Virus record (IMG/VR): IMGVR_UViG_3300048017_000062
Location: 1 to 20,120 of that record
DNA: 20,120 nt
Source of the DNA: a virus
Direction: 5' to 3' (one strand)
The translations under genes and the position numbers were made by a program. Under the pieces are notes generated by a model. That model did not search any database. It was not told the origin of the DNA and worked only from the letters and a program-made list of their open reading frames with translations. Shown here piece after piece: positions 4,470 through 20,120 of the stretch. Each line of letters begins with the position of its first letter. The stretch's first letter is position 1.

Positions 4470-4601
4470 ATGGCTAAAAGTGCTATGTATTTTAATTGTC
4501 CATGCGGTGCTTGGCATCAGATACCGTGGTACGTATACAAAGAGTTGATCTCTGAGACAGCGACTGCTGATTGCTACTGTAAATTAATAAACAATCTCTA
4601 G
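4470..4601 (+). CDS. 43-aa Cys-rich peptide
   Basis: Starts ATG 4470 and stops TAG at 4599-4601. The peptide begins MAKSAMYFNCPCGAWHQIPW and ends with CYCKLINNL: two C-x-C pairs about 25 residues apart form a plausible zinc site. A perfect -10 lies 5 nt upstream of the ATG. Its end overlaps the convergent oxygenase gene by 18 nt. The promoter and paired cysteines make it likely real. Function unknown. Confidence 0.6.
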   Translation: MAKSAMYFNCPCGAWHQIPWYVYKELISETATADCYCKLINNL

Positions 4602-5156
4602 TTTAAATTCTTCTTGAGTTGTAAACCAGAATAGCAGCGTGTATCTCTCTTCGCTAATGCCCTCTACTTCATGCCAATACTCCTCACCATCGGATGGGAA
4701 CAACACCAAGTCAGCCTTCTTTGGCTCATAGGTGTATGGTATGTTCTTAAAGAATAGTTCTCCATCTGTACCCATGCTGTTCAGGTAGATTAATCCGCTA
4801 TACTTCATGTGTGTGTTGGATCCATCATCAACGTCATAGTGTCCTAGGATTACCGCTCCTGGATCCTGCTTACCGAACCAGAAGGAGGCAATGTGTATCT
4901 CTGGCTCATCATACTGAGATTTTACTTCACTAATAACCTTATCAAATATAGGCAGAAGGTCTGGCATTATGTCTGCTATGCCTTCTGTGTTCCAGGCAGA
5001 TCGATCCTGGTGGTACAGGTCTTTTCCAAACAGCCAGGCATAGCGTAAGCCAGTTGGATCCCTATAGAACTTATCTATGTTTGTATCTATGTACTGTATA
5101 TACTTCTCAACATCGTTATCCGATATGAAGTCATTGATCACTTTGATTTTATGCAT
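4584..5156 (-). CDS. 2OG-Fe(II) oxygenase
   Basis: 190 residues from the ATG at 5156 (MHKIKVINDFISDNDVEKYI), chosen because TATACT lies 5 nt upstream; an in-frame ATG at 5171 would add five residues but overlaps that -10. The fold is a P4H-type double-stranded beta-helix: H106-x-D108 (GHYDVD), distal H162 (YWHEV), R171 (ERYTLLFWF), and the strand SGLIYLN preceding DGELFF. All iron and 2-oxoglutarate ligands are present. N-terminal residues 5-25 match the usual opening of these enzymes (ΨINDFIS). Expressed alone from a promoter tucked against the tRNA-Arg gene. Substrate unknown; homologous in kind, not closely in sequence, to the four others in the window. Confidence 0.87.
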   Translation of the reverse strand: MHKIKVINDFISDNDVEKYIQYIDTNIDKFYRDPTGLRYAWLFGKDLYHQDRSAWNTEGIADIMPDLLPIFDKVISEVKSQYDEPEIHIASFWFGKQDPGAVILGHYDVDDGSNTHMKYSGLIYLNSMGTDGELFFKNIPYTYEPKKADLVLFPSDGEEYWHEVEGISEERYTLLFWFTTQEEFKLEIVY

Positions 5157-5161
5157 ACTTA

Positions 5162-5167
5162 AGTATA
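5162..5167 (-). promoter_or_regulatory. -10 box between tRNA-Arg and oxygenase gene
   Basis: TATACT, 5 nt upstream of the ATG at 5156. The matching -35 position (5185-5190, TTCCAA) falls inside the tRNA-Arg T-arm and is poor. The oxygenase may be read from here or by read-through from the tRNA. Confidence 0.5.
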
Positions 5168-5175
5168 TCATCTTG

Positions 5176-6371: not shown

Positions 6372-6591
6372 TTACTGTCTCCTTAATAATCTTAATTGCC
6401 TCTTGCAATCCATTGTTATATTCTATGTTACCATCACGCATGGCTTTTTGCAAGGCCTTGATGGTAACTTTTTTTGCTTCTATCCTGCTGGCGGATGATC
6501 CTAGATCAAATCCCACTTGCCAGCCTACGGAGTATCCCTCGTCATATCGATTACGAAAGAGATTCTTTATCCAATTACTGTTTGGTGTCAT
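6364..6591 (-). CDS. hypothetical protein with YDxGYxxGxxxG motif
   Basis: 75 residues. The segment RYDEGYSVGWQVGFDLG (about 15-31) resembles AYDLGFSHGVSVG in the gene at 3684-3956, and its C-terminus (YNNGLQEAIKII) resembles YNEGFKAAL in 3478-3702: a small helical phage family with Gly spaced along one helix face. It overlaps ThyX upstream by 17 nt and GroES downstream by 8 nt. Function unknown. Confidence 0.7.
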   Translation of the reverse strand: MTPNSNWIKNLFRNRYDEGYSVGWQVGFDLGSSASRIEAKKVTIKALQKAMRDGNIEYNNGLQEAIKIIKETVNA

Positions 6592-7297
6592 TGAATGCCT
6601 TGTGTGTCTCTGGGAATACCTGTTGTGTTAGATCGTTAATAACCTTAGCATACTCCTGGATCTCTACCTGGGCATCATGACCTAGTCTCTGTTCGAGGAA
6701 TGTCATCACTCCCTGTAGTGATACTGTCCAACGCCAGCGTACGTACATACCATAGGCAGGCAGGAATAGACGTGCCAACTCTGGAGCAACTCCATCATCC
6801 ATTGCTTGGTGATATATCTCTGTGCCTTCAGCAATTAGTTTAATAAGTTTATTAGTGTATACTCCACCAGTTCCCTCAAAGATTGGCTCACCGCTGCCTT
6901 GCTTAGAGTTCTCTGGCTTACTACGCCACTCGTCCGCTAGTGGGACGTAGAACTGTTCATCTTCGGTAATGTATCGTCGTGATGATTCGTTCCATCCGTT
7001 TTGGTCATCAACATGTGTCGATCCAACTGCATACTTCCACCACTGACGTGCAACGAATAGAGGTGCATAGACCTCAAAGGTGAGTGCTGCATGGCGGAAA
7101 GGGCTAGTGTGTCCCTCACGGATAAGGAACCTAATAAGTTTTTCATCTCTTGCCTCAAAACTGGTTGACTCTTTGTCATAACTGACACGAGCGGCGTTTA
7201 CAATTGATAGGTCATCTCCAAGGGTGTCTACCAAACGGACGTATCCGTCATCCAAAACCTTGACTGGTTCTGGGAAATCTTTAATATTTAAAGTCAT
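6575..7297 (-). CDS. thyX: FAD-dependent thymidylate synthase ThyX
   Basis: 240 residues, within the ThyX range. It makes dTMP from dUMP using methylene-tetrahydrofolate and reduced FAD, supplying thymidine for phage replication. Signatures: HTSPFRHAALTFEV (63-76), then R84-QWWKYA and the S-x-NESSRRY end (93-109). This is the ThyX motif RHRxxSxNExSxR in an extended form with about seven extra residues, as in many phage ThyX proteins. The C-terminus GHDAQVEIQEYA closes the dUMP site. AGGAGAG sits 5 nt before the ATG, and a consensus promoter lies at 7328-7356. First gene of the operon that continues through GroES to 5363. Confidence 0.96.
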   Translation of the reverse strand: MTLNIKDFPEPVKVLDDGYVRLVDTLGDDLSIVNAARVSYDKESTSFEARDEKLIRFLIREGHTSPFRHAALTFEVYAPLFVARQWWKYAVGSTHVDDQNGWNESSRRYITEDEQFYVPLADEWRSKPENSKQGSGEPIFEGTGGVYTNKLIKLIAEGTEIYHQAMDDGVAPELARLFLPAYGMYVRWRWTVSLQGVMTFLEQRLGHDAQVEIQEYAKVINDLTQQVFPETHKAFNDTKQ

Positions 7298-8618: not shown

Positions 8619-8622
8619 TTGG

Positions 8623-8693
8623 CTTGCCCAGCAAGATTTGAACTGGCTCTTACTGTTTTGAAGACAGTTGTGCTACCGTTACACTATGGGCAA
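8623..8693 (-). tRNA. tRNA with anticodon UCA (UGA-reading, Trp-like)
   Basis: 71 nt on the minus strand. Acceptor TTGCCCA pairs perfectly with TGGGCAA, U8-A9, D-arm GTGTAACGGTAGCAC, anticodon stem ACTGT/ACAGT with loop CTTCAAA, which places UCA at 34-36. T-arm GCCAG-TTCAAAT-CTTGC has one mismatch (C-U). Discriminator G73 and an encoded CCA (8622-8620). It is too short for a selenocysteine tRNA. G73, A37-A38 and the D-arm resemble the neighbouring tRNA-Trp, so charging by TrpRS is the most likely outcome; U34 would read UGA and possibly UGG. UGA is used here as a normal stop by at least twelve genes, which makes this tRNA puzzling. Confidence 0.88.
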
Positions 8694-10092: not shown

Positions 10093-10380
10093 TTAATCCT
10101 TGTCCGTTGTTAGATATTGCCAAGTGGTAGCCCAATCAGCCTTTGATCTATGTCTGTTGAATTCACGAGAGATCTTTCCATTTTCTAGATAGATTCCTCC
10201 CCAGACTCCCCAGCCCTTATTCGTTACTGCAACTGCGAAACATTGTCTTGCAACTGGGCAACTAGAGCACACAGAGTCTATCTCTTTACGAACCTCTAGG
10301 TTTTCTTCGTACTTATCAAAAAAGTCTTCGAGTTCCATGTCCAAACATGCGGCTTCATCTTTCCATTCATGCTTGTCCAT
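10093..10380 (-). CDS. whiB: WhiB-family transcriptional regulator
   Basis: 95 residues from the ATG at 10380; a TTG at 10389 would add three residues. WhiB proteins are iron-sulfur regulators restricted to Actinobacteria and their phages; they bind the housekeeping sigma factor and redirect transcription. All landmarks are here: cluster cysteines C12, C38, C41, C47 (C-x25-C-x2-C-x5-C, in EAACLD and SVCSSCPVARQC), the FF…ENLEVRKEIDSVC helix, the beta-turn GWGVWGG (56-62), and a basic C-terminus (REFNRHRSKADW) that may bind DNA. Phage WhiB (WhiBTM4 is the known case) inhibits host WhiB2 and causes superinfection exclusion. It starts just after the stop of the upstream gene. Confidence 0.95.
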   Translation of the reverse strand: MDKHEWKDEAACLDMELEDFFDKYEENLEVRKEIDSVCSSCPVARQCFAVAVTNKGWGVWGGIYLENGKISREFNRHRSKADWATTWQYLTTDKD

Positions 10381-10381
10381 T

Positions 10382-10591
10382 TTATCCAACTAACTTATTT
10401 GGAATCTCCCAACCATCAGCAGTGATTTCGTAACGCTTCTGTACGATCCATCTACCGTTGACGTATCTGCCTTCAGCAGACATAACGCCATTTTCTTTGG
10501 TTCTGTTTTCTAGGACGGTCCAGCCATCCCATGAAAGAGCCCTATTGTTTTCTACAATTTGCTCCATAGTTTCAAGTGAGTTAATTAACAT
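10382..10591 (-). CDS. hypothetical protein
   Basis: 69 residues starting MLINSLETMEQIVENNRAL. After a helix, the rest is strand-rich with regular aromatic residues (SWDGWTVLEN, GRYVNGRWIVQKRYEITADGWEIP), a small beta-sheet protein. AAGGGGTAATT precedes the ATG. It immediately precedes WhiB and is probably coupled with it. No family recognised. Confidence 0.66.
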   Translation of the reverse strand: MLINSLETMEQIVENNRALSWDGWTVLENRTKENGVMSAEGRYVNGRWIVQKRYEITADGWEIPNKLVG

Positions 10592-12432: not shown

Positions 12433-13236
12433 TTACTTAATCTTTCCCCACGTTAGTGGACCAACAATTCCATCGGCAGTTAGTTTGTTCTTCTTCTGAA
12501 GGTCAACAACTGCTAGGTGAGTCTTGTCTCCAAATGTTCCAGGAGTGTCTCCGACAACACCGAGAGAGTTCTGTAGGTAGCGTACTAGCCCATTCTTTGA
12601 ACCCTTCTTAAGTGTACCCTTTAGTGCTGGCTTTGTCAAGACATTTGTTGCTGGCTTCGGTGCTGGCTTGGTTGCTGGCACTGCTACCGTTGCATCCTTA
12701 ATAATCTCGACTGGTGCATCTTCTGGAGTGGCAACATTAGCAAATCCCTTTGCTGCCTCCATCTTAATAAGAGCATCTACGAAAGCCAGTGGCTCTACGA
12801 AGCCCTTGCCATCTGCTGACCAGCCGTGCTCCTTGCCCTTCCAGATTTCCCAGTGAAGGTGAACTCCAGTAGACATGCCAGATGTTCCCATAATTCCCAG
12901 AACTGTTCCAGCCTCGATCTTCTGACCAGCCTTGACCTTCATCGATCCAGGCTTAAGGTGTGCATACAGAGAGGTGTAGAAGTCCTTGCCAATCTTGTGC
13001 TGAACAACAACGTAGTTTCCAAACCCTCCTCCTGGAGCGGTAGACACTGCTGCCTTCAGAACCTTTCCGTCATAGAAAGATTCGATGTATGTTGGACCCT
13101 TGCCGAGACCGAAGATGTCCGTACCATTGTGGTGCTTCTTTTCTTTTTTAACTGGGTGCATACGCCAACCCATTTTGCTACTGACCTTCCAGGTTTTTCC
13201 CTGTGCTCCGTCAATAGGATATTGTGCTTTAGCCAT
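12433..13236 (-). CDS. endolysin: M23 endopeptidase plus peptidoglycan-binding domain
   Basis: 267 residues. Residues 18-150 are an M23 (LytM-like) zinc endopeptidase that cleaves peptide cross-bridges: H36-x3-D40 (HNGTD), H93 (YAHL) and H126-x-H128 (HLHWE) are the zinc and catalytic set, with GWRMHPV and GNYVVVQH strands. A Pro/Ala-rich linker (about 165-205) leads to a C-terminal PG_binding_1 domain (GSKNGLVRYLQNSLGV … GDKTHLAVVDLQKKNKLTADGIVGPLTWGKIK). No signal peptide, so export needs a holin. The best Shine-Dalgarno in the window, AAAGGAGGT, lies 8 nt before the ATG, and an extended -10 promoter is just upstream: strong, separately controlled expression. Confidence 0.93.
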   Translation of the reverse strand: MAKAQYPIDGAQGKTWKVSSKMGWRMHPVKKEKKHHNGTDIFGLGKGPTYIESFYDGKVLKAAVSTAPGGGFGNYVVVQHKIGKDFYTSLYAHLKPGSMKVKAGQKIEAGTVLGIMGTSGMSTGVHLHWEIWKGKEHGWSADGKGFVEPLAFVDALIKMEAAKGFANVATPEDAPVEIIKDATVAVPATKPAPKPATNVLTKPALKGTLKKGSKNGLVRYLQNSLGVVGDTPGTFGDKTHLAVVDLQKKNKLTADGIVGPLTWGKIK

Positions 13237-13257: not shown

Positions 13258-13266
13258 ATTATATCA
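13258..13266 (-). promoter_or_regulatory. extended -10 promoter of the endolysin
   Basis: TGATATAAT on the minus strand (TGnTATAAT), no clear -35, about 21 nt before the ATG with AAAGGAGGT between. The TGA is also the stop codon of the upstream SGNH gene. Confidence 0.65.
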
Positions 13267-13281
13267 GTTGTCGCTGATATA
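13260..13281. repeat. hyphenated palindrome over the endolysin -10
   Basis: TATATCAG and CTGATATA form perfect 8-bp arms around a 6-nt centre. One arm overlaps the endolysin -10 box; the other lies in the last codons of the SGNH gene. It could be an operator or a weak hairpin at the end of the modification operon; no T-run follows. Confidence 0.7.
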
Positions 13282-14184
13282 GATGTTGTAGATAAAGTGG
13301 TAGAAGAAGTCCTGTAGTGCAACGCCTGCATGCGATTCATCCAAAGCCTGGAAGTAGTATTTCTCCCAGATGTCTTGTTTGTGTGCTTCGGTGTATGCAT
13401 GGGAGTGCTTCCAAATATCCTCACCAGTGAAGACATGGAAATTGTCAAAGTAGTCTCTTGGATCCAACTCGAAGTGAATGAATCTTTGAGACATCTCTTT
13501 AGTGCTCCAAGAGTATGCGTATAGTTTGATGCCATTCGATCTGCAATACTCTACAAGAGACATGTACATGCCTATGGATAGGTAGTTAACCTTGCTAACC
13601 TTGACATTATCAATTGGATTACGGTCTACCTCTTTGATGTTGGTGGAAGATATGTTGACGTACTCTCTATCAATGTCTGGTAAATTTACAAAAAGAATTT
13701 CTGGATTTCCATAAAGTTTAATATACTTGAATATCTGGATCACAACCTCCATGATTGTGGCACCTGGAAAAGCAATGTTAAAATAACCAGACATCTTATG
13801 GTCTTGGCTTAGTCTATTGTAGAGTTTCTTTGTCCACAACTTATTCTCTGGGATACCCTCGCCAGCGGTCATAGAGCATCCTGCAAACACAACATGCTTG
13901 CCATCGTGCTCTGTGGTAAATTCATCGCATCTGAGTTGGCTTGAGTTTAATTTATAAAAGTACCTCATGTCATACCCTGGGAACAGTTTTTGCATATTCT
14001 CTTTTGTTTTTTCATATGAGTATGCCCAGAGGTTAAAGTTATTCAAGATAGACATGTCTGGCTTAAAGGATAATTCAGATGTCAGCCCAAATTCTTCCAT
14101 CTCCTTTTTGATATCCTGATTGTCATATTCACGATAGGCCTTCAGGGTATCCTTTAAGTCCTTATCCTCATTCCAGGCCTTCAT
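13264..14184 (-). CDS. SGNH-hydrolase-like protein 1
   Basis: 306 residues from the ATG at 14184, which overlaps the carbamoyltransferase UGA (ATGA) and has GAGG 8 nt upstream; a GTG at 14217 would add 11 residues. Residues 97-112 (HVVFAGCSMTAGEGIP) form SGNH block I with nucleophile S104 (GCS replaces GDS). A Gly-containing FPGATI and the strand ILFVNLPDIDRE follow, and D282-x2-H285 (DESH) supplies the other catalytic residues. Family members are esterases or O-acyl/acetyl transferases on sugars. The extra 95-residue N-terminal region is unassigned. It is similar in layout to the gene at 15681-16538. No signal peptide, so the substrate is intracellular. Confidence 0.82.
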   Translation of the reverse strand: MKAWNEDKDLKDTLKAYREYDNQDIKKEMEEFGLTSELSFKPDMSILNNFNLWAYSYEKTKENMQKLFPGYDMRYFYKLNSSQLRCDEFTTEHDGKHVVFAGCSMTAGEGIPENKLWTKKLYNRLSQDHKMSGYFNIAFPGATIMEVVIQIFKYIKLYGNPEILFVNLPDIDREYVNISSTNIKEVDRNPIDNVKVSKVNYLSIGMYMSLVEYCRSNGIKLYAYSWSTKEMSQRFIHFELDPRDYFDNFHVFTGEDIWKHSHAYTEAHKQDIWEKYYFQALDESHAGVALQDFFYHFIYNIYISDN

Positions 14185-15617
14185 CGAATAATCCTCGTTC
14201 CGTATGTCTGCTCCCACTCAATGATATCGTTTTCATCATTCAGTAGCGGCTGTCCCTTAATGTTTAGGCTGGTATTTAGAAGTATCGGAACGCCAGTCTC
14301 CTCGTAGAATCTTTTTAGCAGTGCATATAGCCCAGGGTGTTGCTCTGCGTTCACTGTCTGTACCCTGGAAGTTCCATCTACGTGAACCACCGACGGAATC
14401 AGTTCTGGCTTAAGGCATCTAGGAGTGTACTGCATGTAAGGGCTTGTGTAGTCCATATCAAACCACTCAGAAGCATGCTCTTCCATTACTACTGGAGCAA
14501 AAGGTCTGAATAATTCACGCTTCTTTATCCTATTAACCTTGTCCTTGATGTTTGGATCTCTTGGGTCTGCCAGGATACTTCTATTTCCCAACGCTCTTGG
14601 TCCAAACTCTGCCCTACCGCTTGCAACTGCTGCGATCTGGTTGGTCATAATTTCATCAAAGATTTTATCCACAGGATATTCTCCAGGAATGTTGTGCCCC
14701 AGGTATGGACCCTTCCAGTTTAAGTGCTTGCCATGGAGTGCTGCGGCTGCACCCAAAGAACTACCAGCGTCTCCTGGGTTTGGCATAATCCAAACGTTTG
14801 GGAATATGTCCCAAAGCATTGTGTTGGCCTTGCTGTTCAAGGCACAGCCACCCATAAAGACTAGGTTAGGGCTATCCATTTCCTGTCTAACAATATACAT
14901 AAAGTCCCACAGTCTGTCTTCGTACACCTTTTGTACAGATGCTGCGATATCAAACCTGTCCTGCTCAGTTATTTCCTGGTCCCAGTCAAAGATGCCCTTG
15001 TGAAAGTTGTACCTTTGCTTGTAGACCGATGGGAAGTATTTAGACACCTTGTCAAAGTAAACATCTGGGTTGCCATATCCAGCCATCCCCATCATGATGT
15101 ACTCCTCTTCATTGGCCTTTAGTCCCAGAAGATCTGTAAAAGCCGAATAGAATAGTCCAAAACTGAATGGGTATGCCCATTTCTTGTGAAGCCTTATGTC
15201 ATCCCTGTGACCATACCAAACGCTAGATGTAGTAAATTCACCGATTGCATCCAATACAACGATAACAGCATTGTCGAATGGGCTAGTGTAGTAGCCTGCT
15301 GCAGCGTGTGAGTAGTGGTGGCTAAACTTGTTAGTCTTAATATTCTTAAGGCCAGTAGATAGATAGAAGGGCTTTCCTCCACCGAACCCACCGTGAAGTT
15401 TGATTCTGAGTTTCTTGAGCCAAGACTTCTCGTAATATGCAATGCTATCTGGAAGGCCATTGTCAACAAGGCAGTCATCGAATAGTCCACGATTCGTGAA
15501 CCAGTCGTTCTTTACCTTGCTATATCTCTCGGAATGTCCTGCGAACAGTATCTCTCCATCATCAATGTATGCTGCTGCTGCATCGTGTGTTGTCTCGTTA
15601 ATACCAAGTATCTTCAT
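14181..15617 (-). CDS. NodU/CmcH-family O-carbamoyltransferase
   Basis: 478 residues, somewhat shorter than typical 540-600-residue members. These enzymes transfer a carbamoyl group from carbamoyl phosphate via carbamoyl-AMP to a hydroxyl of a sugar, antibiotic or nucleoside. N-terminal Kae1-like domain: MKILGINETTHDAAAA (1-16), metal motif H100-x3-H104 (HHYSH), VLDAIGE (121-127), GGCALN (256-261) and D283 in NPGDAGSSLG. C-terminal domain: RAEFGPRALGNRS (335-347) and RPFAPVV (371-377), both diagnostic. It sits between two SGNH paralogues and is preceded by a 26-aa micropeptide whose stop overlaps its ATG. Substrate unknown. Confidence 0.94.
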   Translation of the reverse strand: MKILGINETTHDAAAAYIDDGEILFAGHSERYSKVKNDWFTNRGLFDDCLVDNGLPDSIAYYEKSWLKKLRIKLHGGFGGGKPFYLSTGLKNIKTNKFSHHYSHAAAGYYTSPFDNAVIVVLDAIGEFTTSSVWYGHRDDIRLHKKWAYPFSFGLFYSAFTDLLGLKANEEEYIMMGMAGYGNPDVYFDKVSKYFPSVYKQRYNFHKGIFDWDQEITEQDRFDIAASVQKVYEDRLWDFMYIVRQEMDSPNLVFMGGCALNSKANTMLWDIFPNVWIMPNPGDAGSSLGAAAALHGKHLNWKGPYLGHNIPGEYPVDKIFDEIMTNQIAAVASGRAEFGPRALGNRSILADPRDPNIKDKVNRIKKRELFRPFAPVVMEEHASEWFDMDYTSPYMQYTPRCLKPELIPSVVHVDGTSRVQTVNAEQHPGLYALLKRFYEETGVPILLNTSLNIKGQPLLNDENDIIEWEQTYGTRIIR

Positions 15618-15697
15618 TAGTATATATACCGCTTTTCTTTCTTCTCAGCCTTCTGGATCTTATATTTCCAGTATAGCATTCTAATCTTCTTTATCAT
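15617..15697 (-). CDS. 26-aa basic micropeptide A
   Basis: ATG 15697, TAA 15617-15619 overlapping the carbamoyltransferase ATG (TAATG); it overlaps the upstream SGNH stop by 17 nt. AAAGGA lies about 7 nt before its ATG, so it has its own ribosome-binding site. Begins MIKKIRMLYWKYK and ends RYIY. It shares MI-x-KIR, WK-x-K and the terminal YIY with the 25-aa peptide at 16545-16622, so the two are paralogues. Strongly basic with a Trp/Tyr core, consistent with binding RNA, membrane lipid or a partner enzyme. Function unknown. Confidence 0.72.
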   Translation of the reverse strand: MIKKIRMLYWKYKIQKAEKKEKRYIY

Positions 15698-16538
15698 TAT
15701 TAATCCTTTCGATGAAGCAGTCCGCAACAAACCTGTGCCTGATTGTTCCATCGTGATGTCCATCTCTAGCCAAGAAGAACAGGTTTTTGTCTAGCCCAGC
15801 CAGATCTTGCTTTGTTAGGCCCATAAAATAGTCTGTCATTTTTTGAAATGGAATGCTTTGAAAAGTTTTGAGATCAGTCCTTTCGGATTGGGTGGATGTC
15901 AGGCTGTCCCAGGATGAGGCGTACAATTCTATTCCATTCATATTACAAAAAATCTCTAGCATTCTATAGTAATTTTGAAACTGGAACAGTAGAGTCTCCA
16001 TCTGCTTGTCGTCAATGTTTATTGTATTTTCTCTATAGTCGAACATAAGAACATTTCTAAAACCGATGTCATCGCCGTTTTCCCAAAAGGCTATGTGCCT
16101 TGAGAAGTCTGCAAACATTACAAATATGTAGTCTGGCTTTCCATACTTGTCGCAGTACTTAAAGATATTGGAGACAAGCCTGTCTGCACCGCCGCCTGGA
16201 TAACCTAGGACCTGTAGTGGTCCAGCATTGTCAAAACTTTTGTGGACTCTATTGGTCCACCTTGTGTCCTCTGGTATGCCCTCTCCAAAAGTTGAAGAGC
16301 AACCAGCAAATAAAATGTTTGTCTTACTCGGATCCAGGGCGACAAAGTCTTCTGACCTATGTCCATCGTTGTTTAATTTATATGTTATTCCAGGGGTAGG
16401 TTTTACCTTAAAGTCATGCTGCTCTGGATACGTCAAGAAGTACTCCCTGCCCCCTAAAAAGTAGTGGGTGGCAGGGTCTATCTCATACGACATCTCGGTG
16501 TGCTTGAAGACATCCCTATCAAAACTATAGTCAAACAT
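15681..16538 (-). CDS. SGNH-hydrolase-like protein 2
   Basis: 285 residues. Block I is NILFAGCSSTFGEGIPE (74-90) with nucleophile S81; GYPGGGADRL and YIFVMFADFSRH follow the same order as in the other copy, and the end carries D259-x2-H262 (DGHH). Shared residues FAGCS-x-T-x-GEGIPE and FKY-x-x-x-YG-x-P between the two proteins show duplication rather than convergence. Family role: sugar O-acetylesterase or acyltransferase. GGAAC is just before the ATG. Downstream of micropeptide B and upstream of micropeptide A. Confidence 0.83.
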   Translation of the reverse strand: MFDYSFDRDVFKHTEMSYEIDPATHYFLGGREYFLTYPEQHDFKVKPTPGITYKLNNDGHRSEDFVALDPSKTNILFAGCSSTFGEGIPEDTRWTNRVHKSFDNAGPLQVLGYPGGGADRLVSNIFKYCDKYGKPDYIFVMFADFSRHIAFWENGDDIGFRNVLMFDYRENTINIDDKQMETLLFQFQNYYRMLEIFCNMNGIELYASSWDSLTSTQSERTDLKTFQSIPFQKMTDYFMGLTKQDLAGLDKNLFFLARDGHHDGTIRHRFVADCFIERINNDKED

Positions 16539-16544
16539 GGGTTC

Positions 16545-16622
16545 CTAGTAGATGTAGGTCTTGCCTTTTAGACTCTTGCGATGCTTTCTTTTCCACAACC
16601 AATACCTTATCTTACGAATCAT
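16545..16622 (-). CDS. 25-aa basic micropeptide B
   Basis: ATG 16622 overlaps the upstream oxygenase TAA (TAATG); TAG 16545-16547 is 6 nt before the SGNH protein 2 ATG. Begins MIRKIRYWLWKRKHRK and ends TYIY. Highly basic with three aromatic residues in the core. Its relation to micropeptide A (15617-15697), with the same ends, the same length and the same position immediately upstream of a biosynthetic gene, is the main evidence that both are real genes. Confidence 0.72.
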   Translation of the reverse strand: MIRKIRYWLWKRKHRKSLKGKTYIY

Positions 16623-17284
16623 TACTCGGTTCCGTCCGACTCAATGATTTCTTCTCTGCTGTGAAACCAGTGTGGCAAGGCGTACCTAGTACCAGAAGTT
16701 ACTTCCGCAATTTTGTGAACTGCAAGGTAATTAGATGGGAAGAAGATGATGCTTCCTGCTGGTGGCTTAATCTTTAGTCCATAATGCATGAACTCAATCT
16801 CTCCACCCTCATAGTCATCGTTGAGATACATTACAGAAGAAACCAGTCTGCTACTGACCCCCTGGTCCTGGTGTTCTGGAAGATGTCCGCCTTTTGTATA
16901 TCTTAGAAGATTAATCTCAAACTCTCTGCCCTTAATCACTCTTCCAGCATATGGGTATAGGGTATTCTTGTAGTGATCAGCGGCGTAGTCTAGACTAGAG
17001 TAAAGTGCGTCAGAGACTGACTTCATCTCTGTAGCGTAGTAGTCCCAGGCCTGGATGTCCTTTGACTCTGGCAAGTACTTCTTCTGGCAAAATACTGAAT
17101 CTCCGTATGCCCAATCAGTCCATGGTCCAACAGTAGTTTCAGCGTTGCCATGCTCACCGCTAACAAACCGATCATCAATGCTATTTATACTATCTATGAT
17201 GCCCTGTGCGTCTGGGATGGCGTTCTTGTATAGAACTACCCCGACACCTAGAACATCAAATTCTAGATCAGTTTTTTGGAACAT
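16622..17284 (-). CDS. 2OG-Fe(II) oxygenase, P4H-like
   Basis: 220 residues from the ATG at 17284 (MFQKTDLEFDVLGVGVVLYK), chosen for GGAAGG upstream and a 17-nt overlap; a longer reading to 17341 runs deep into the previous gene. Iron ligands H138-x-D140 (PEHQDQG) and H190 (AVHKI), 2-oxoglutarate-binding R200 (SGTRYALPHWF), and family strand SVMYLNDDYEGGEIEF (150-165). The match to the plus-strand oxygenase (GVIYLNDDYLGGEISF) is close in this core. Second of three consecutive oxygenase genes in transcription order nearest the micropeptide. Hydroxylation of a protein side chain or small molecule is expected. Confidence 0.9.
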   Translation of the reverse strand: MFQKTDLEFDVLGVGVVLYKNAIPDAQGIIDSINSIDDRFVSGEHGNAETTVGPWTDWAYGDSVFCQKKYLPESKDIQAWDYYATEMKSVSDALYSSLDYAADHYKNTLYPYAGRVIKGREFEINLLRYTKGGHLPEHQDQGVSSRLVSSVMYLNDDYEGGEIEFMHYGLKIKPPAGSIIFFPSNYLAVHKIAEVTSGTRYALPHWFHSREEIIESDGTE

Positions 17285-17870
17285 ACTTAATTGCCTTCCA
17301 GTCTCTCGTTTCTTCCTCTGTGTGGAAGTCTGGGTCCGCATGCTGAGGCCTTGAGGTGTGCATAAATAGGCCAGTGTATCTGTCTCCTCGTGTTACCTGG
17401 GTAATGCCATGAATATATTCTGAACCTGCTGATGGGAAGAATACCGCAGAATATTTCTTTGGCTTGTACTCAAACTCTTGGTTAGGGAAATAGATTACTC
17501 CGCCGTCATAGTCTTCTGGATCGTTCAGATACATAATCGTGCTGAACTCGATAAAGGCTTCTGGGTCTTGGGCATCCATGTGTACGCCTCCAGAGTCGTG
17601 TCCTGGTGTCCAGTGGGACCCAAAAGTCTTGAAGACATAGATTGGGTTCTTGAAGCCGTTAACATCTTCATGCACCTTGTTAGACTTAAGACCATACTTG
17701 ATTAGAATGTCCATGGTTCTCTTGTTGTATGGAAAGCCTGTACCACCGAAGTACGTCTTGTATCTGTCTGGATGGGGATTAACCTCTGATGGCATGTCCT
17801 GCTCCTGGATTAGTATCTCCGCATCTTCTGGCGTGATGAAATCCTCAATGATTGTGATTCTGTGACTCAT
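17268..17870 (-). CDS. 2OG-Fe(II) oxygenase
   Basis: 200 residues. Opens MSHRITIIEDFITPEDAEIL, the usual start of P4H-type enzymes. Ligands H97-x-D99 (GVHMDAQD) and H154 (YIHGI), R164 (GDRYTGLFMH), with FSTIMYLNDPEDYDGGVIYFP (109-129) as the central strands. AAGGAGAAATA precedes the ATG, which overlaps the TAA of the upstream gene (TAATG). It is about as distant from the other oxygenases here as they are from each other, so they are likely specialised for different substrates or sites. Confidence 0.9.
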   Translation of the reverse strand: MSHRITIIEDFITPEDAEILIQEQDMPSEVNPHPDRYKTYFGGTGFPYNKRTMDILIKYGLKSNKVHEDVNGFKNPIYVFKTFGSHWTPGHDSGGVHMDAQDPEAFIEFSTIMYLNDPEDYDGGVIYFPNQEFEYKPKKYSAVFFPSAGSEYIHGITQVTRGDRYTGLFMHTSRPQHADPDFHTEEETRDWKAIKYVPKN

Positions 17871-18712
17871 TATTTCTCCTTAGATTCTACGCCCAATAGT
17901 CGCTTATCGTCTTCCGTGATGTCATCATCATGGCTGAAAACAAGTTGTGGCAGGTTTGGGTCTGCTTCTGCCAACTTAACATATAGCGGTTGCCACATGT
18001 GAAGTCTTTGATTCTGGAATGCAAGAAACTTTTCATCTTGCATATAGTTCTGACCAAACAGATTCTTCCAGTGGTCTTTCCTAATTAGGTGTAGGAACAA
18101 CGCTTGATAAAATTCCTTTGGGTCGTCTGAGCCCCAGGCTGGTCTGTAGTGAAAATCAAACTCAGGCTGAACAATGATAGCGTCATTAGGCTTTGTCATA
18201 AACTCTTTGTCGTGTGCTACAAAGCCCCAGTCACGATTCCCTCCAATATGGAGATCAACCATATAGGAGCCAGGAGACCAGTCTAGGTGTACCTGAAGGA
18301 ATGGCTTACGCCCCTCTGCAGTGATTTGGTGATGGGCATACAGGTAATACCCCAACTCAACATCTTCTGTGCCTAGGGCATCTCTTACTTTTCTGATTGC
18401 CTTGTCGAAGAGGTGTTGTGGGATTGGAACAGCATCTTCCCACTTATTCATTTGCTTCGTGTATACGATATCTGCAAGATCTTTTGCATACAGGGCTGCC
18501 CGAAGTTCCTCAAAGTCAGCCTCGTCGAAGAAGTTTTCAATGATGAATGGCTCAAAGAACTTTACGTTCTTTGTGAAGATGTTCTCTATCTCAAGGTATT
18601 CGTCCTTGGTGCAGAACTTCCAGTCTATCGAATCTGGATCTGGGTGATTCTCGTATAGTGCAAAAGTGCTTTCTTTAAAATTTACCAATGTTTCTCCAAT
18701 GCTCACGTCCAT
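17870..18712 (-). CDS. divergent non-haem iron oxygenase-like protein
   Basis: 280 residues, longer than its two neighbours. Residues 50-75 (VKFFEPFIIENFFDEADFEELRAAL) resemble the helix that starts P4H domains. H142-x-D144 (VHLDWSP) and H188 (FHYRPAW) with the intervening KPNDAIIVQPE fit the iron triad on a cupin-like fold; the usual Arg/Lys for 2-oxoglutarate is not obvious (candidates R190 or R211), so cofactor use is uncertain. The C-terminal 70 residues are an extra acidic helical part. ATG 18712 is 4 nt from the stop of the glycosyltransferase; the Shine-Dalgarno is weak. Confidence 0.75.
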   Translation of the reverse strand: MDVSIGETLVNFKESTFALYENHPDPDSIDWKFCTKDEYLEIENIFTKNVKFFEPFIIENFFDEADFEELRAALYAKDLADIVYTKQMNKWEDAVPIPQHLFDKAIRKVRDALGTEDVELGYYLYAHHQITAEGRKPFLQVHLDWSPGSYMVDLHIGGNRDWGFVAHDKEFMTKPNDAIIVQPEFDFHYRPAWGSDDPKEFYQALFLHLIRKDHWKNLFGQNYMQDEKFLAFQNQRLHMWQPLYVKLAEADPNLPQLVFSHDDDITEDDKRLLGVESKEK

Positions 18713-18716
18713 TATA

Positions 18717-19541
18717 TCAATTAATTACTCTTGTTGCTTCGATGAATTTCTTTCCATCTGCCTCGTAAAATTTCATATCTGTATGAATATAGGATACGTC
18801 ATTGTACTGATGCGGCAACTTAAACATCTTATTCTTATCTATCTTATGATACTCTAAGAATTGTTTTGCAGCATCTAGGCTAAAATAGTCAACGACCCTG
18901 TCATAGTTGTGCTCTAGGGAGAATGGGCAGTAGATATTCTCAATCAGCCTTTTCTCTAGGTCTTGGTAGAGATCTCCTGGTGCAGCAAAGACATCTATTC
19001 CGTTCATAAAGAAGTTCAGGGATAGCAACTCTTCTTCCCCATAATATTTTACCTCTCCAGGGTATTGTGCTCTCTGCAGAAGTTCGGATTTAGCGAATAT
19101 AAAATTTCTATCTACATACTGGCTTAGGGCAAACTTGTTGTCCCATACTGGATTTTTTTCTAGAAAGTATAGATCTTTGTGGAAAAGGTTTGGCCTTGTG
19201 TGTCCAGAGACAACCACATCCCTCTCCCCCACAAACTCCATAAGCCTGCTATCCCAAGAATCCGAAAGCATAACATCATCGGACATGATGAGAATAAACC
19301 CAGATGCTTGGTCAATTTTTTTCATCTTAATTTCGCATGGACTCTTGATGGAGTCCCAGGTCTTAAACTCATAGTACATCTGGTCATAGTTATCGAACAT
19401 CTCGGACCGATTAATGTTGTTCTGATCTATTACAAATACAGAGAAGTTGTCTCCAGAGGCCCTGCTGTATAGGTTATCGACTACGTCCTTTAAGTTTTTA
19501 TCTCTGTAGGAATATAAGATTACCTGAATGTGATCACTCAT
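18717..19541 (-). CDS. glycosyltransferase, GT60/PF11397-like (GT-A fold)
   Basis: 274 residues. HIQVILYSYRDKNLKDVVDNLYSRA (4-28) matches the opening I-x-V-x-x-YRD-x-x-L of the GlcNAc-transferase family PF11397; FSVFVIDQNN is strand 2, FILIMSDDV (82-90) carries the acidic DxD-type metal/nucleotide-sugar site, and SWDSRLMEF the following helix. Family GT60 includes the Dictyostelium enzyme that adds GlcNAc to hydroxyproline of Skp1, after a prolyl-4-hydroxylase. Three oxygenases are encoded directly downstream, so such a relay is an attractive inference. A generic GT2-like role on glycan is the alternative. Its ATG overlaps the upstream stop by 8 nt. Confidence 0.7.
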   Translation of the reverse strand: MSDHIQVILYSYRDKNLKDVVDNLYSRASGDNFSVFVIDQNNINRSEMFDNYDQMYYEFKTWDSIKSPCEIKMKKIDQASGFILIMSDDVMLSDSWDSRLMEFVGERDVVVSGHTRPNLFHKDLYFLEKNPVWDNKFALSQYVDRNFIFAKSELLQRAQYPGEVKYYGEEELLSLNFFMNGIDVFAAPGDLYQDLEKRLIENIYCPFSLEHNYDRVVDYFSLDAAKQFLEYHKIDKNKMFKLPHQYNDVSYIHTDMKFYEADGKKFIEATRVIN

Positions 19542-20120
19542 TCTTGCCCCTTTTTAGAATGGAGGTGAATATTTTTCTAACCCATGCTGACTTCTTGTAA
19601 TGACTAAATAAATCTGTGCGTCTCTTCTCTGCACGTAATTCATACTTATTTAGTTCTTCAGAGTCAGTCACCACATCAAGTTCCCAATCATCTCTCTTGA
19701 ATGGTATCATCTGGAAGATCGGAGTTCCCCTGGGAATCATACCCCTAAAATTACGCTTGAGAAAGAATGACACAAAGACTGGCAGACCCCAGTTGTCTGC
19801 GTCTACGATGCCCGATAGGGTGTAGAACGGCAGGTCGTGCCTATTCATGGGGTGTGTAATCATCACAGAGTATCCTGGTGGGGTCTCATAGTACCAATCC
19901 ATTCTCCAACCGAAGTGTACTGGATGGCAGTTGTCTGGGATGGGGACATCAATCATGGTCCTCTGATCAACTGGCAGGCCGTGCCCACTCCAAGTTATGA
20001 TTGGTTTTCCAGATGGGTCCATGTCTACATAAACATCATTTTTTAAAACATACACATATCCCATGGTTAGTGCGTCAAAGTAGGGCATGCACATCTTGGT
20101 GGAAGATATGGATCCGTCGG
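19534..20120 (-). CDS. DUF6065-like protein, 5' end cut by window
   Basis: The frame is open to the window edge (…GSISSTKMCMPYFDALTMGY), so the true start lies beyond 20120; the ATG at 20094 is internal. The visible 194 or so residues include PPGYSVMITHPMNRHDLPFYTLSGIVDAD and RGMIPRGTPIFQMIPFKRDDW, which I recognise as the DUF6065 pattern, a family of unknown function found in bacteria and phages beside oxygenase and glycan genes. No catalytic set is obvious. A basic C-terminus (KKSAWVRKIFTSILKRGK) could touch a membrane or a partner. It is the most upstream visible gene of the modification operon. Confidence 0.72.
   Translation of the reverse strand, partial: DGSISSTKMCMPYFDALTMGYVYVLKNDVYVDMDPSGKPIITWSGHGLPVDQRTMIDVPIPDNCHPVHFGWRMDWYYETPPGYSVMITHPMNRHDLPFYTLSGIVDADNWGLPVFVSFFLKRNFRGMIPRGTPIFQMIPFKRDDWELDVVTDSEELNKYELRAEKRRTDLFSHYKKSAWVRKIFTSILKRGKNE

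Follow-up and report, generated by a model that had tools for sequence, protein, structure and literature searches.

The window analysed here is the entire IMG/VR virus record IMGVR_UViG_3300048017_000062 (20,120 bases). A single coupled operon occupies positions 13264-20118 on the minus strand and encodes, in order, a DUF6065-like protein, a GT-A glycosyltransferase (GT), three 2OG-Fe oxygenases, a micropeptide, an SGNH protein, a second micropeptide, a NodU-type O-carbamoyltransferase (NodU), and a second SGNH protein (Table 1). Junctions within the operon range from -23 to +6 nt: DUF6065/GT -8, GT/2OG-1 +4, 2OG-1/2OG-2 -1, 2OG-2/2OG-3 -23 with the approximate start at 17290 or -17 with the ATG read from the sequence, 2OG-3/micropeptide 1 -1, micropeptide 1/SGNH 1 +6, SGNH 1/micropeptide 2 -17, micropeptide 2/NodU -1, and NodU/SGNH 2 -4. 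The last gene is followed after 27 nt by that of an M23 lysin. The original prediction of one co-expressed operon, with these genes in this order and no gap of more than a few bases, agrees with this tight packing, and each of the families that it named was found again, in some cases below the curated cut-off; the gene set is all there, the DUF6065 gene being cut short by the contig end. The three oxygenases in a row were confirmed, and the window has one more 2OG-Fe(II) oxygenase, its fourth, beyond the operon at 4584-5171 (minus strand; PF13640, 1.3e-8), adjoining a tRNA-Arg gene.

Table 1. Genes of the operon and the lysin gene that follows it, with positions in the 20,120-base window.
Feature	Position	Strand	Evidence and remarks
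DUF6065-like protein, truncated by contig end	19534..20118	-	phrog_7084 3e-31; PF19541 18.1 bits
GT-A glycosyltransferase, GT60/GT27-like	18717..19541	-	AlphaFold pLDDT 87; VIA; hhalign
2OG-1, divergent 2OG-Fe(II) oxygenase	17870..18712	-	weak phrog matches; H142, D144, H188, R190 invariant in relatives
2OG-2, prolyl-hydroxylase/PKHD type, core gene	17268..17870	-	PF13640 2.9e-8; 67% mean column identity
2OG-3, prolyl-hydroxylase type	16622..17284 (ATG at 17284)	-	PF13640 4.8e-16
Micropeptide 1, MIRKIRYWLWKRKHRKSLKGKTYIY	16545..16622	-	C-terminal tail family
SGNH/GDSL-like protein 1	15681..16538	-	family alignment GCSxTxG and DxxHxG; PDB profile matches all GDSL/SGNH
Micropeptide 2, MIKKIRMLYWKYKIQKAEKKEKRYIY	15617..15697	-	C-terminal tail family
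NodU/CmcH-type O-carbamoyltransferase, both domains	14181..15617	-	PF16861 5e-55; PF02543 9e-43
SGNH/GDSL-like protein 2	13264..14184	-	same family evidence as protein 1; ATGA overlap with NodU stop
M23 peptidase and PG-binding lysin	12433..13236	-	PF01551 1e-19; AGGAGG upstream; context after the operon, not part of it

The host is probably an actinobacterium, since the window carries a WhiB gene (10093-10389; PF02467, 6e-13) and phage WhiB has been suggested as a key indicator of actinophages (PMC10202952); from the same actinophage and WhiB literature we infer a freshwater origin. The minus strand also encodes a phage GroES (6084-6371; Cpn10, 1.6e-30), ThyX (6575-7297; 3e-36), and a canonical tRNA with anticodon UCA (8620-8693; 'SeC' in ARAGORN, Rfam tRNA 59.6 bits). 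The last could be an opal suppressor, yet TGA is the stop codon in 12 of the 43 listed window ORFs; no such tRNA was seen in 35 related loci checked. In related viral contigs, tmRNA genes were predicted at L012:7338-7650, L023:13439-13754, L024:4889-5266, and L026:4702-5033, with tag peptides such as ANSRSAFALAA.

Two of the three operon oxygenases exceed the PF13640 cut-off and carry the HxD...H motif, whereas 2OG-1 is assigned by its invariant HxD...H, its profile matches being weak. Searched against the PDB, the 2OG-2 family profile finds Prolyl 3-hydroxylase 1 first (3.7e-6) and the 2OG-3 profile finds prolyl 4-hydroxylases first (2.3e-7). The model of the glycosyltransferase aligns in VIA with polypeptide GalNAc-T2 (Z 20.4, 230 residues, rmsd 2.8), and the top 29 entries are all polypeptide GalNAc-transferases (Z 17-20); other GT-A families follow from Z 16.6 down, with lysyl hydroxylase LH3 at 15.8. 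The model thus suggests the GT-A catalytic fold of GT27, at fold level only. The GT60-like call of the original prediction was upheld by profile-profile alignment (hhalign Prob 98.5, E 2e-15) to A4, a GT60-like phage family with a member that passes PF11397. The enzyme itself scores 14.3 bits against PF11397, below the cut-off of 21, and is therefore described as GT60-like only and not as a GT60 member. The GT profile gave no match against PDB sequences. Fold and profile do not fix the acceptor; GT-A relatives also include glycan and teichoic-acid transferases.

The DUF6065-like protein falls short of PF19541 (cut-off 26.6 bits) and is related to it through phrog_7084. A model of a relative (L055:6382-7101) suggests a dUTPase-like beta fold: VIA matches it to dUTPases with Z up to 9.9 (127 residues), all 50 of the best matches listed being dUTPases, and Foldseek is borderline (E 1.4e-3). 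Relatives in isolates come mostly from haloarchaeal viruses, tailed ones among them; in halovirus HF2 one (L168:6884-7768) lies near a ribonucleotide reductase gene.

Both carbamoyltransferase domains of the NodU-type protein score over their cut-offs (Carbam_trans_N 147.4 bits against 24, Carbam_trans_C 186 against 27), and it matches phrog_1601 (1e-107) and, in the PDB, novobiocin carbamoyltransferase (4e-53), GdmN, and TobZ. The SGNH proteins gave no Pfam match; the PDB matches of their family profile are all GDSL/SGNH esterases (best E 0.0013), with the block I serine (S81) invariant and the block V Asp-x-x-His (D259, H262) conserved in at least 90% of members.

With NodU as bait, 80 viral loci were found (62-81% identity), and the GT profile gave 78 further locus identifiers, some on contigs already found with NodU. 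DUF6065 and a 2OG oxygenase stand beside the glycosyltransferase in 76 of the 78 GT-bait loci, NodU is present in 51, SGNH in 44, and a micropeptide in 24; counts within families are not independent and the contigs are incomplete. The homologues are therefore not scattered without co-occurrence, the finding that the original prediction had named as contrary to it, but the opposite. Gene order in the 78 GT-bait loci is nearly always c11-DUF6065-(DUF6065)-GT-2OG; the idea that c11 is itself a divergent DUF6065 was weak (Prob 31). The core is constant across relatives and the decorating enzymes are variable. Because the relative order of the NodU, SGNH, and 2OG genes differs among related loci, the claim that gene order reflects stepwise building of the product did not stand in its strict form. 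The search for bacterial relatives found one NodU locus, in Streptomyces; neither a micropeptide nor SGNH could be recognised in the ORFs listed for it. No paper describing the operon turned up in literature searches on phage acyl shuttles or on phage glycosylation systems with prolyl hydroxylases.

The two micropeptides had been noticed in the original prediction and are both present, but were underrated there: they belong to a conserved family that is under purifying selection and has SGNH and NodU as partners. Members are 24-33 residues long and strongly basic, and their C-terminus is practically invariant as aromatic-Ile-Tyr. In the NodU loci, 52 of 401 small basic ORFs terminate in FIY or YIY, where about 0.5 would be expected from the rate in long ORFs; a chance origin of the tails was rejected on this basis (P ~1e-85 against the long-ORF rate, overstated since members are related). 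Since many contigs carry this gene set and the tails lie far above chance, the operon is more than a chance assembly. The 43 distinct strict micropeptides all have Tyr at -1 (43/43), with Ile at -2 and Phe or Tyr at -3; position -3 can take F, Y, W, or H, and -1 in linked members only Y. Synonymous codons vary in the tail, TAA, TAG, and TGA all serve as stops, and pN/pS in four subgroups is 0.07, 0.19, 0.24, and 0.31. Gaps in operons lacking a strict micropeptide sometimes contain FTY or YTY variants.

Among 62 distinct micropeptides, SGNH lies within 3 kb of 50, NodU within 3 kb of 46, and one or the other within 3 kb of 58, leaving four unlinked and eight with NodU yet no SGNH at that distance; these counts are inflated, as NodU or GT baits supplied the greater part of the loci. 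A bait-free control, in which 2.9 million viral contigs were scanned for the tail pattern with no enzyme as bait, placed 22 of 26 micro-ORFs of the first pattern beside operon genes; of the four unlinked, three are copies of one sequence with a different composition. The second pattern returned mostly unrelated chance matches (2/6 linked). Neither PHROG nor Pfam has a family covering the window micropeptides at a meaningful E-value, and tblastn against GenBank phages found only that of marine virus AG-345-D19, in which a YIYEE micropeptide precedes NodU (45% identity). The family has no database entry that we found and was probably overlooked because annotation skips ORFs so short. An amphipathic helix in the micropeptides was unsupported (mean z 0.06). 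Proteins of the GT family have a C-terminal tail, modelled at low confidence, that mostly ends in Ile-X (of 72, IY 19, ID 17, IH 12) and recalls the micropeptide tails; with IY in only 19 of 72, a C-terminal tag common to GT and micropeptides is doubtful.

Gene identities, set conservation, and micropeptide selection and linkage were computed, and from here on we infer every reaction, substrate, and sugar, as well as the shuttle role. We give a probability of roughly 0.5 to the reading that the operon serves to build a polypeptide-linked glycan and to decorate it. The prolyl-hydroxylase-type 2OG oxygenases would hydroxylate side chains, the GT60/GT27-like GT-A transferase would attach a sugar to side chains that are hydroxylated or belong to Thr or Ser, the NodU-type enzyme would carbamoylate hydroxyls, and the SGNH enzymes would transfer or remove acyl groups, with the micropeptides acting for SGNH and NodU as the C-terminal FxYxxF tail does in DltX and PatA. 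The leading candidate substrate would be the Pro/Thr-rich product of a phage gene that many relatives have just upstream: of 51 loci, 23 contain a mucin-like Pro/Thr/Ser-rich ORF on the upstream side of the GT core and none has one on the downstream side, a link that is synteny within related phages, the window contig ending before its position. A genome-wide spatial link did not emerge, Pro/Thr-rich ORFs in genome pieces being not clearly nearer 2OG genes than other ORFs (3/8 v 26%, no enrichment), and this ORF is for that reason a candidate only.

Modification of a polypeptide is favoured over that of DNA, as in the original prediction, because the GT model best matches GalNAc-transferases, the GT profile is related to GT60, and two oxygenase profiles find prolyl hydroxylases. 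Hypermodification of phage DNA, with an oxygenase making a hydroxymethyl base that GT, NodU, and SGNH then decorate, has in its favour the predicted dUTPase-like fold of the DUF6065-like protein, which the polypeptide-glycan reading leaves unaccounted for, and a weak Tet_JBP match in one oxygenase; moreover, a phage NodU-family enzyme carbamoylates 5-hydroxymethylcytosine (PMC8670742). In that study, however, it was only in modified contigs that the carbamoyltransferase gene was accompanied by one for thymidylate synthase (PMC8670742), whereas none of the 22 long relatives has a thymidylate-synthase-type hydroxymethylase (PF00303) and no Tet_JBP match reaches the cut-off in these records, which are possibly incomplete. 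An enzyme forming a hydroxymethyl base was thus found in 0 of 22, in line with the earlier statement that no TET-like enzyme is visible, and with the oxygenases matching prolyl hydroxylases best, a DNA target appears distinctly unlikely. The enzymes might instead assemble or modify a polysaccharide, either free or on the host surface, for instance in superinfection exclusion or receptor masking, as cyanophage sugar clusters with NodU may; in cyanophages and pelagiphages NodU is surrounded by sugar-nucleotide and glycosyltransferase genes and in some cases adjoins tail fibres. Yet the window operon has no recognised gene for sugar-nucleotide synthesis, polypeptide transferases are the closest match to its GT, and prolyl-hydroxylase-type oxygenases would not be expected in glycan assembly, which makes this reading unlikely too.

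Within the polypeptide-glycan reading, the micropeptides can be compared with PatA and DltX, in which a C-terminal FxYxxF tail holds an acyl group on its Tyr and hands it to an SGNH enzyme: the acetyl-Tyr of the Neisseria gonorrhoeae PatA peptide FIYANF is used by the SGNH enzyme PatB, and the DltX Tyr plays the same part for DltD (PMC12148441). The phage peptides share an F/Y-x-Y at the C-terminus, which is the first half of FxYxxF, an invariant Tyr, and an SGNH partner (within 3 kb for the 50 of 62 given above), and FIYANF contains their FIY. They differ in stopping at Tyr with no xxF, in being very short and very basic, and in sitting with a carbamoyltransferase in phages with no detectable MBOAT or AT3 loading enzyme (none in 30 records, possibly incomplete). 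For want of the xxF and of MBOAT or AT3, the micropeptides may work like DltX/PatA shuttles but are not counted as members. With MBOAT and AT3 undetected, they are tentatively proposed, at odds clearly short of even, to be small tyrosine-tailed acyl (or carbamoyl) shuttles for SGNH and NodU, feeding SGNH and perhaps loaded by NodU, the choice of NodU as loader being speculation based on adjacency. The specific scheme of an MBOAT-free shuttle class, in which NodU would put carbamoyl on the C-terminal Tyr and SGNH would pass it to a protein-linked glycan, is improbable as it stands.

The small size, strong positive charge, nearby partner genes, and duplication of the micropeptides in the window would equally suit scaffold or membrane-tether subunits, or a modified, RiPP-like substrate. 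This account, which is compatible with the glycan reading, has a fair chance of being right, somewhat short of even; a tether would not obviously need the invariant terminal Tyr, given the freedom at -3, and the operon has no recognised peptidase or exporter. Being short ORFs that end in a conserved C-terminus immediately ahead of a gene, the micropeptides also recall ribosome-arrest leader peptides regulating the next gene, but all three stop codons are in use, the marine relative runs on past the motif (YIYEE), and many micropeptides lie after NodU and not before it, and we regard this role as very improbable.

If the polypeptide-glycan reading is true, freshwater phages can hydroxylate, glycosylate, and decorate their own proteins by a self-contained pathway; if the shuttle role is also true, the tyrosine acyl shuttle of membrane MBOAT/AT3 systems has a viral form in peptides of ~26 residues, small enough for direct synthesis and test.

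Several known systems share parts of the operon. The phage 5hmC carbamoyltransferase systems found by MetaGPA (PMC8670742) also have a phage-encoded NodU-family enzyme, but in the relatives of the window no thymidylate-synthase-type hydroxymethylase was found and the neighbours differ. Cyanophage and pelagiphage clusters, which belong to tailed phages, combine NodU with GT and 2OG oxygenases; their NodU is ~30% identical to that of the window, and the regions read contain no micropeptide of the window type, except in AG-345-D19. TobZ, novobiocin carbamoyltransferase, and GdmN are clear sequence matches in the PDB to the phage NodU, which has both Pfam domains and differs from them in its operon with oxygenases and SGNH; its carbamoyl transfer to a hydroxyl is predicted. 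Below the PF11397 cut-off and with acceptor and sugar only putative, the operon GT differs from GT60 proper, yet its predicted fold is closest to polypeptide GalNAc-transferases and its profile is related to phage GT60. The Skp1 pathway consists of a prolyl hydroxylase and a GT60 enzyme, and the operon GT likewise adjoins genes of the prolyl-hydroxylase type.
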